Of a stretch of 37,778 bases of DNA, positions 26,034-31,552 are shown piece after piece. Within the stretch, counting starts at the first letter, position 1. Every line of letters starts with the position of its first letter. The DNA is taken from the NCBI GenBank assembly GCA_903897475.1, contig CAIUBS010000031.1, forward strand, positions 1 through 37,778, read 5' to 3'. Below the pieces are notes generated by a model. That model searched no databases, was not told the origin of the DNA, and saw nothing but the letters and a program-made list of their open reading frames with translations. Origin of the DNA: an uncultured Actinomycetes bacterium (GTDB taxonomy: Bacteria; Actinomycetota; Actinomycetes; Nanopelagicales; Nanopelagicaceae). The position numbers were made by a program, and so were the translations under genes.

Positions 26034-26725
26034 AATCCTTTACCATTTCTAGCATCCTTCAGGGAGTGCACTCCGTGAGGGATAAGTTCAGCTGCTGCAA
26101 CTGTAAGCATAATTCCAGCAACCACAGTCAATAACTTAGCCACAAAAACTTCAGATAGCGATGAGCTTTCATATAGAACTACGCATGCCCCTAATATCTC
26201 AGAGATTGTGGCTGCTGCTACCAAAAAAAATACTTTGCGAGCTGACATTCCTGCTGCAAGTGCGGTGACAGCAATTGCTAATCCTTCAGGAATGTTATGA
26301 AGTGAAATGGCAAGTGCAGAGATTAGACCGGACTGAAAGTCTACGATCGTAGTTGAGATTGCAACTGAACCTTCTGGAAAATTGTGCAAGGTAAGTGCTG
26401 CTGCAACTAAAATTGCAGACTTCTCTAACTTGCTGCCAGAGCTTTCAAGTTTGCCTGCTGCGAATCGAAGAATTAAAACTACCGCTATGCCAATTGTTAG
26501 CCACAAAACAATAGAACCAATATTTAAACCAGCTTTATCAGCAGTCGGTATTAACTCAAATATACTGACCAAGATCATTGCTGATGCTGCAAATAGCAGA
26601 GCAATAGCAACTAGATAATCTGAAAGCACTCTTTTGATCGCAACAATCAACCAACCAATCATGGTGGCCAAGGCAGCAACAATTGAGAGCAAAAAACCTA
26701 CCTGATTATTATCTAAATTAATCAC
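26021..26725 (-). CDS. ZIP-family divalent metal transporter
   Basis: Integral membrane protein of 234 residues with about eight hydrophobic segments. The paired metal-site motifs LHNFPEGSVAIS (about 113-124) and LHNIPEGLAIAV (about 141-152) are diagnostic of ZIP transporters. They import zinc, iron or manganese into the cytosol, and sequence does not fix the metal. The N-terminal GTG at 26725 is used. No Shine-Dalgarno sequence is seen; a TAAAGT at 26748-26743 would give an RNA beginning about 11 bases before the GTG. The inverted repeat at 26745-26770 overlaps that hexamer, suggesting control by a metal sensor. The upstream nrdEF enzyme is of the manganese/iron type. Confidence 0.88.
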   Translation of the reverse strand: MINLDNNQVGFLLSIVAALATMIGWLIVAIKRVLSDYLVAIALLFAASAMILVSIFELIPTADKAGLNIGSIVLWLTIGIAVVLILRFAAGKLESSGSKLEKSAILVAAALTLHNFPEGSVAISTTIVDFQSGLISALAISLHNIPEGLAIAVTALAAGMSARKVFFLVAAATISEILGACVVLYESSSLSEVFVAKLLTVVAGIMLTVAAAELIPHGVHSLKDARNGKGLKNS

Positions 26726-26744
26726 AGCAGATAGCCATTTGAAC

Positions 26745-26770
26745 TTTACTCACCATAGTTGGTGAATAAA
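26745..26770. promoter_or_regulatory. Inverted repeat, candidate operator upstream of the ZIP gene
   Basis: TTTACTCACC (26745-26754), loop ATAGTT, GGTGAATAAA (26761-26770): nine of ten arm positions pair. It overlaps the presumed -10 of the ZIP transporter on the minus strand, as an operator would. It lies 20 bases after the nrdF stop codon, so a role as an nrd terminator is the alternative, but no T-run follows. Confidence 0.45.
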
Positions 26771-26790
26771 CTCCGATCAAAACTGAGAGG

Positions 26791-29923
<3,133 letters not shown>

Positions 29924-29924
<1 letters not shown>

Positions 29925-30322
29925 TAAAATTGTTTCCACATTAGATCCATTCTCTCTTTGACCGCACTAACATCATGTGGGGTACCGATTAACTCGAACT
30001 GGTAAAGCAGGGGAACATTACACTTCTTAGCTATTAACTCACCGGCGTAGCAGTACTTGTCGCCAAAATTTGTATTTCCAGCGGCAATTACACCTTTGAT
30101 TAAATCTCTATTCTTCTTTACATTTAAAAACTTAATTACTTGCTTTGGAACTCCTGATTCATCCTTGCCATTGCCATAGGTGGGGGTCACCAACACATAA
30201 GGCTCGGCCACCTCGATCTGATCACTTGCTTGTAGCGGAATTCGCACCGCCGGCAGATCTAACTTCTCAACAAACCTCTTGGTGTTTTCAGAGACGTTGG
30301 AAAAGTAGACGATGTTAGGCAT
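29924..30322 (-). CDS. nrdI: NrdI flavodoxin-like protein
   Basis: Small flavodoxin of 132 residues that helps assemble the manganese-tyrosyl radical cofactor of NrdF. The N-terminal [18 protein letters not shown] is the FMN phosphate loop. [18 protein letters not shown] and [18 protein letters not shown] surround the flavin. The start ATG 30322 is 18 bases downstream of nrdH, without an obvious ribosome-binding site, so translation probably depends on nrdH coupling. Its presence argues for a manganese-loaded NrdF. Confidence 0.95.
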
Positions 30323-30340: not shown

Positions 30341-30568
30341 TTACGCAACCGACAGCTTGGAGATCATATCTGGCCTAAAACCTGACCAGTGAGCATCCCC
30401 TGCAATTACCACCGGGGCTTGTTGGTAACCTAAAGATTTGATCAGCTCATAAGCATCCTCATCAGTACTCAGATCCACAATCGAGTAATCGATCTTGCTC
30501 TGATCTAGATACTTCTTCGTCGTATCGCACTGGATACAAGAAGGTAACGTGTAGACAGTTACTTGCAT
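30341..30568 (-). CDS. nrdH: NrdH glutaredoxin-like redoxin
   Basis: Electron donor to NrdE. The 75-residue thioredoxin fold has redox Cys11-x-x-Cys14 (SCIQC) and the C-terminal WSGFRPD motif that separates NrdH from glutaredoxins. APVVIAGD holds the cis-proline. A strong AAGGAG Shine-Dalgarno sequence (30579-30574) lies five bases before ATG 30568. It is the first gene of nrdHIEF and follows the long regulatory gap. Confidence 0.96.
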   Translation of the reverse strand: MQVTVYTLPSCIQCDTTKKYLDQSKIDYSIVDLSTDEDAYELIKSLGYQQAPVVIAGDAHWSGFRPDMISKLSVA

Positions 30569-30970
30569 GAGCTCTCCTTAAAATTAGGGTCGCAAAATGA
30601 GCAACAAACATTGAAAGGTTAGGAATTGCCTTTGCAGTATTTACTCGTCTTGCAGACTTTCACTTCTTAATATTCCAAATTAAGAACTCCGGTTTACTCG
30701 CGGGAAGATGCGGTAGTGGGATAACGCCGGAAGAATCTGGATTTTGTCCTATTAAGTTGTGAAAGACAACTATAAACCCGCACTATAGGTTTGTGTGGGA
30801 GCGACACGAACTCTATCCACACACCGGGGTGATTTTCTGAGCGCAAAAAGCAGCGGTTTTAAATACTTTTCCCCACCCCAGCCATCTGCTCTTGTCCAGC
30901 TCTTAGCAGACACCCCCTCTAGCCAGCCCAATGCCCACCGGTAGATAAAAGCAAACAACGCAAGATCCAA
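30569..30970 (-). promoter_or_regulatory. Long gene-free region upstream of nrdHIEF: tandem -10s, hairpins, candidate regulatory leader
   Basis: 402 bases with no convincing gene; other gaps in the window are mostly under 100. On the minus strand two TATAGT hexamers (30787-30782 and 30774-30769) could be tandem -10 elements giving a leader of about 200 bases. Perfect inverted repeats lie at 30755-30771 (AGTTGT, 5-base loop) and 30664-30686 (TTCTTAAT, 7-base loop). Farther upstream are TGTGTGG/CCACACA at 30792-30823 and TCTGCT/AGCAGA at 30885-30910. TGTGGATAG (30821-30813, minus) differs from the DnaA box TGTGGATAA by one base. The minus strand is G-rich at 30879-30932. No known riboswitch class was recognised. 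Confidence 0.5.
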
Positions 30971-31552
30971 CTAGCCAATATCTTTTAATAAATTATTCAT
31001 AAGCTCAATCTCTTTGTTCTGCGAAGATTTAATCTTGGCACCAAACTCTTTTATCTTGGCATCCCTTGAGCCTTCTATCATCGCCACCATATCAACTGCA
31101 CCTTGGTGATGAGCAATCATTCCCTTTAAAAACAACATATCGAATTGATTACCACGGGCGGCTTTAAGTTGTTCAATTTCACTATCAGAGAGCATTCCAG
31201 CCATTGAGTGCATTGAGTGACCTGGATCCTCACCCTGTCCTGCTGCTTTTAGCCAAATCTTCATCTGTTCAATCTCTGGCGCCTGTGCGTCTTTAATTTG
31301 TTTGGCTAAATCCAAAACTTGCTGATTTTTTGAGTTTGCATTTGCCAGATCTGATAACAAAATTGCTTGTTGGTGGTGAGGAATCATCATTTGTAAAAAC
31401 ATTGCATCATCACCATTCATATTAGATGAGAGCGAGCTGTGATCCATACCCATTCTAGAATCATTACCTGCATTATTTTCCACTAGGGCGTTTATGCCCA
31501 AACTTGCACCAACAAAGGCTAATATCGAAAGCAATAAAAATTTACGATTCAT
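30971..31552 (-). CDS. DUF305 exported metal-binding protein (CopM-like)
   Basis: A 193-residue secreted or membrane-anchored protein. Residues 1-22 form a signal segment (MNRKFLLLSILAFVGASL). Two DUF305 helical repeats follow, each with a paired His: IPHHQQAI (His59-His60) and IAHHQGAV (His148-His149). Met/His clusters near 34-45 and HSMHSM at 112-117 suggest copper or another soft metal. Some family members protect against copper in the periplasm; that role is inferred here. A strong ribosome-binding site (GGGAG, six bases before ATG 31552) is present. The gene stands alone, and its upstream region holds an imperfect palindrome at 31577-31590. Confidence 0.88.
   Translation of the reverse strand: MNRKFLLLSILAFVGASLGINALVENNAGNDSRMGMDHSSLSSNMNGDDAMFLQMMIPHHQQAILLSDLANANSKNQQVLDLAKQIKDAQAPEIEQMKIWLKAAGQGEDPGHSMHSMAGMLSDSEIEQLKAARGNQFDMLFLKGMIAHHQGAVDMVAMIEGSRDAKIKEFGAKIKSSQNKEIELMNNLLKDIG

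Follow-up and report, generated by a model that had tools for sequence, protein, structure and literature searches.

A conserved putative promoter and leader before nrdHIEF in an uncultured freshwater actinobacterium: a candidate lineage-specific cis-regulatory RNA, possibly a remodelled B12 riboswitch leader

The systems closest to the locus considered here are regulatory elements associated with ribonucleotide reductase (RNR) genes. In Streptomyces, a B12 riboswitch controls nrdABS, a class I RNR operon (Borovok et al. 2006, as cited in PMC4991794). A different structured RNA, the Rfam nrdJ RNA (RF03034), has been reported in S. lividans (PMC8079986); we found nine matches to this family above its cut-off, all adjoining nrdJ and all in a single genus, presumably Streptomyces. 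At the DNA level, the operator of the NrdR repressor consists of tandem NrdR boxes placed 31 bp apart, a spacing implied by the NrdR-DNA structure, as described in PMC9110341.

The nrdHIEF locus and its RNR context

On the minus strand of the window (the whole 37,778-nt stretch of DNA analysed), a CopM/DUF305 gene is followed by a 402-base gap (30569-30970) and then by nrdH, nrdI, nrdE and nrdF (Table 1). The initial annotation had drawn attention to this gap and to the Shine-Dalgarno sequence at its end, and both are real: no other gap in the window, where genes mostly touch, is as long, and AAGGAGAG precedes the ATG of nrdH in a window in which few genes carry a motif of this kind. The strongest fold of the window lies at the end of nrdF (26701-26840, minus strand, z -5.5) and is perhaps the operon terminator.

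Table 1. Features of the nrdHIEF locus, in coordinates of the window
Feature	Position	Strand	Basis
nrdF, class Ib RNR beta subunit	26791-27762	-	TIGR04171; start codon uncertain, ORF extends to 27807
nrdE, class Ib RNR alpha subunit	27795-29939	-	TIGR04170
nrdI	29924-30322	-	TIGR00333
nrdH, first gene of nrdHIEF	30341-30568	-	TIGR02194, 98 bits, above cut-off
Conserved regulatory block (putative promoter and leader)	30569-30809	-	93% identical in G007, against 54% at fourfold-degenerate nrdIEF sites
Shine-Dalgarno of nrdH, AAGGAGAG	30572-30579	-	Sequence; kept in G007
Predicted structured RNA element of 109 nt: a single long hairpin, interrupted, with an apical core	30657-30765	-	Fold z-scores; differences from G007; model R2
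3' arm of the long-range helix, UAUUAAGAAGUGAAAG	30657-30672	-	14 of its 16 bases paired to the 5' arm
5' arm of the long-range helix, CUUUCACAACUUAAUA	30750-30765	-	Probability of pairing close to 1 along most of the helix, dropping to 0.4 at the outer end
Candidate -10 element 2, TATAGT	30769-30774	-	Sequence; invariant in G007
Candidate -10 element 1, TATAGT	30782-30787	-	Sequence; invariant in G007
Octamer CGTGTCGC (GCGACACG on the plus strand)	30801-30808	-	Reading of the leaders by eye
CopM/DUF305 gene	30971-31552	-	Upstream of the gap

The operon is rare in the order, nrdI being present in 4 of 296 genomes, all of one genus: G000 (the genome carrying the window), G001, G007 and G012. 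Outside these four, the nearest NrdE recovered by a contig scan belongs to Microbacteriaceae MAGs, including Rhodoluna (84%), which suggests that nrdHIEF was acquired horizontally. Most genomes of the genus encode a B12-dependent NrdJ with NrdR beside it, and most also contain cobalamin riboswitches, located mostly before one family of small proteins. G001, a complete relative, keeps both NrdJ and NrdR alongside nrdHIEF. In G000, G007 and G012, searches for NrdJ, NrdR (TIGR00244) and the cobalamin riboswitch gave no match. Completeness is 92% for G007 and about 75% for each of the other two, and the apparent joint absence of all three features from these three genomes is unlikely to reflect chance alone.

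Conservation and predicted structure of the leader

The region is intact in one other genome, G007, and every leader comparison is one between two sequences; the G012 contig starts inside nrdI, which leaves its leader outside. G007 keeps the gene order of the window minus the CopM gene, and its leader is about 93% identical over the 241-base block adjoining nrdH, but the remaining 161 bases of the gap (30810-30970) have nothing in common with it. The leader region of some 400 bp initially proposed therefore holds for its nrdH-proximal part and not for the rest. As a separate observation, the window has the CopM/DUF305 gene between a GNAT gene and the leader (30810-31552), and this gene is absent from the corresponding position in G007. 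Identity between G000 and G007 at fourfold-degenerate sites of nrdI, nrdE and nrdF is 54% (432 sites), and neutral positions of these genes are therefore close to saturation. Set against this background, the non-coding block shows strong purifying selection. Within it, the 47 bases preceding the 109-nt element differ solely at two edge positions, the element itself is 94.5% identical and the 88 bases that follow it 87.5%; conservation is highest in the promoter part. Conservation in close relatives, on which the initial annotation had made its proposal depend, is thus observed, with a single other species holding the region. A DNA search and a model search of the 296 genomes of the order found no further copies, and none were found in viral contigs.

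The two perfect hairpins that had been singled out in the leader are both exact, with stems of 6 bp (30755-30771) and 8 bp (30664-30686), but they are unsupported as functional units. When the leader is folded, the probability of the local 30664-30686 hairpin is near 0, and the partner of its arm is the 3' part of the 30755-30771 hairpin, so that arms of both are joined in a 14-bp long-range helix closing the 109-nt element. Chance would account for a lone 6-bp stem in 400 bases, but not for the long-range helix or its conservation. The fold z-score of the element is -3.4 in the window and -5.6 in G007, values that are optimistic because the ends of the element were chosen at the complementary arms; that of the whole transcript is -1.8. 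The best minus-strand 110-nt segment of the gap is 30656-30765 (z -3.9), values of -3 or below being reached by 1.5% of all 110-nt segments across the 37.8 kb. The structure was predicted from the window alone and then tested on G007, whose differences within the element fall on none of the 66 paired and on 6 of the 43 unpaired positions (Fisher p = 0.003). Covariation is absent from this two-sequence comparison because no pair varies between window and G007. Model R2 matches G000 and G007 only.

Two other structures were considered and set aside: a further hairpin domain lying between the element and the Shine-Dalgarno sequence, three pairs of which are broken in G007, and an RNA from the plus strand. 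The latter also folds well in the window (30691-30800, z -4.1, with values of about -4 to -4.7 over the leader), but its fold is weaker in G007 (-2.6) and the plus strand has no gene directly downstream. A scan of the minus strand after the element found no strong intrinsic terminator, only one weak 5-pair candidate at 30605-30589, which makes transcription attenuation less likely.

As for the promoter, the two TATAGT elements initially proposed as start signals are present and invariant in G007, but a simple sigma-70 scan of the gap returned 0 promoters against 1.9 expected in shuffles, and for this reason they are regarded as plausible -10 boxes lacking a recognisable -35. With element 2 as the -10 box, RNA would begin close to where the 5' arm of the long helix lies. 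Two sister genomes have an nrdR-nrdJ promoter that resembles a 25-base promoter stretch of the window (0 of 400 shuffles as good). The octamer GCGACACG lies at the block edge and also occurs in the nrdH promoters of several small-genome Microbacteriaceae, in the opposite orientation to that of the window (L008, L009, L010, L011, L037 and L194), and a similar AACACGCCGA is found in L133-L146. Motifs of the GCGACACG type contain GACAC, which we take to be the WhiA site of Streptomyces. WhiA and GACAC are the subject of PMC3781837.

Relation to cobalamin riboswitches and to the NrdR operator

That no known RNA class could be recognised in the leader is borne out by Rfam, which returned no family for the gap at the gathering cut-off and no relevant match at E ≤ 10, the sole listing at that level being a chance lncRNA match on the plus strand, which was discarded. 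At the same position, G001 carries an RF00174 cobalamin riboswitch (38 bits, cut-off 31.5; L086 4164-4312, minus strand), and it is likely that in this species the class Ib RNR operon is under B12 riboswitch control. A genus-specific model (R1), made from 13 cobalamin riboswitches and run with filters off, gave no match on the window leader. It weakly matches the nrdH leaders of Rhodoluna (L010, E 2.7e-4; L011, E 0.98), and in L010 the AdoCbl-II family of the same clan (CL00101) reaches 12.6 bits, under its cut-off. Diverged cobalamin-like elements below the Rfam cut-offs were observed before nrdH in Microbacteriaceae-type MAGs, Rhodoluna among them (L010 4220-4333, L011 4230-4337, L194 1077-1190 and L025 1771-1878). 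Reading of the window leader core reveals neither the GGGAA junction nor GUGAAA, and no L13-type loop complementary to the CCCAC segment, as in the L5-L13 kissing loop, was found by eye. A functional cobalamin riboswitch was rejected on the failure of the genus-specific model; by membership the leader does not appear to be one, and the cobalamin-binding core seems no longer to be there.

The leader does retain a partial likeness. Its core, UCCCaCuACCG...GAGUAA..CGG, lines up, by eye and in alignments, with UCCCgCaACCG...GAGUAA..CGG, and the pairwise alignments of the window or G007 leader with those of G001 and Rhodoluna are co-linear. Against L011 and L194, none of 814 background segments scored as high as the window (for G007, p = 0.001 and 0.012, respectively); against G001 the values were 0.036 for the window and 0.001 for G007, and against L010 they were 0.048 and 0.022. 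Removing the promoter part costs most of this significance, the exceptions being the window versus L011 and L194. Profile searches linking the leader to cobalamin leaders were not significant; profile HMMs made from nrdH leaders placed their best match at the right position in G007, but with an E-value of 2.5. Descent from a cobalamin-riboswitch leader thus goes no further than a supported suspicion.

For NrdR, a two-box profile (two 16-bp boxes at 31-bp spacing) was trained on 104 nrdH leaders. It detected tandem boxes upstream of nrdR within the genus (0-5 of 200 shuffles scored as well), but no boxes above shuffles in the window (43 of 200 as good) or in G007 (61 of 200). In L133-L146, upstream of nrdR, the two boxes are CCCAACATATAGGGGT and TTCCATAAGTAGTGGT, 31 bp apart. 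A DNA operator explains much of the conserved block that precedes nrdR-nrdJ. The idea that this block is homologous to the RNA element was discarded, given that it is a tandem NrdR operator sharing with the leader only the 25-base promoter stretch; nor is it RF03034.

A proposed leader RNA and its alternatives

The reading we favour, with a probability of roughly 0.55, is that the nrdHIEF mRNA has its promoter and 5' leader in the conserved block and that the predicted 109-nt fold acts in cis as an RNR regulator. The leader RNA would then be a cis-acting regulator specific to this lineage, possibly one that arose by remodelling of a B12 riboswitch leader. The long structured leader envisaged in the initial annotation keeps its support in the constraint on the block, the fold scores in both genomes and the avoidance of paired positions by the differences, but the hairpins then named are not its units. 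Against the favoured reading weigh the number of sequences, which is two, the placing of the element's ends at complementary arms, the z-score of only -1.8 for the whole transcript, the 1.5% of 110-nt segments that fold as strongly as -3 or better, the strong fold of the opposite strand and, as regards descent, the profile searches that were not significant and the alignments weakened by removal of the promoter part. The same constraint might instead act on DNA, the block being a promoter with operator sites for a repressor or an activator, its inverted repeats protein-binding sites and the RNA fold incidental. This alternative, possible but not probable, gains from the promoter part being the most conserved stretch, from its resemblance to the nrdR-nrdJ promoter, from the recurrence of the octamer in related RNR promoters, and from the fact that inverted repeats are identical when read on either strand. 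However, the 109 nt beyond the likely start site are also highly conserved and no change falls in a predicted pair, some 75 bases separate the arms of the long helix, which is unusual for one operator, and there is neither a tandem NrdR-box signature nor a detected NrdR gene.

Two further explanations involve a cobalamin riboswitch. The leader could be a decaying, non-functional remnant of a riboswitch leader, its conservation due to recent divergence or interspecies recombination; having only two known copies and a partial resemblance, it would fit such an origin. Neighbouring genes near saturation beside a leader about 94% identical, and differences that avoid paired sites, which is unlike decay, make this quite improbable, and recombination limited to the leader, possible as it is, is not needed. 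Least probable of all is a functional but highly diverged cobalamin riboswitch missed by Rfam. The riboswitch at the same place in G001, the aligned core and the sub-threshold elements of the Rhodoluna leaders speak for it; against it stand the lack of any match to the genus model or in Rfam, the absent GGGAA and GUGAAA loop and the purpose itself, since B12 sensing would be of little use to species in which no NrdJ is seen.

According to the favoured cis-regulatory reading, transcription from a promoter in the block would produce a leader RNA folding into the 109-nt hairpin, whose 14-bp base would join the transcript start to sequence about 90 nt downstream. The element would then modulate translation or stability of the nrdHIEF mRNA and would not work through intrinsic termination; neither NrdR nor the B12-dependent NrdJ is seen in this lineage. 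The element probably sits in the place of the cobalamin-riboswitch leader of a sister species and of Rhodoluna-type donors, and may descend from it. A bolder version, which we consider doubtful though slightly less so than decay, is that of a new class of riboswitch or protein-binding RNA serving the only RNR of the lineage after the loss of NrdR and NrdJ, derived from a cobalamin leader and now sensing, for example, a metal or a deoxynucleotide. RNR has to be kept in step with DNA synthesis; if NrdR, a dNTP-sensing repressor, and the B12 riboswitch were both dropped, this leader would be the most visible remaining regulator of the only RNR detected. If so, it would be an example from nature of how a riboswitch leader is remodelled once its ligand no longer serves a purpose, with G001, Rhodoluna and the window offering three stages at which to study the process.

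Among the described systems, RF03034 resembles the leader in being a structured RNA beside an RNR gene in Actinobacteria, but the window leader does not match it. The NrdR operator, like the block, is conserved sequence at RNR promoters and is present before nrdR-nrdJ in the same genus; it is, however, a DNA element, and the window and G007 show no box signal above shuffles, nor was an NrdR gene found. In contrast to the cobalamin riboswitch, the window leader is matched by neither Rfam nor the genus model, has no GGGAA/GUGAAA core and no P4 hairpin, and occurs in genomes where no B12-dependent RNR is detected. With that riboswitch it nevertheless shares a weak, co-linear core similarity, the same operon in the sister species G001 and, as in both G001 nrdHIEF (RF00174) and Streptomyces nrdABS, the position of a leader before a B12-independent RNR operon.
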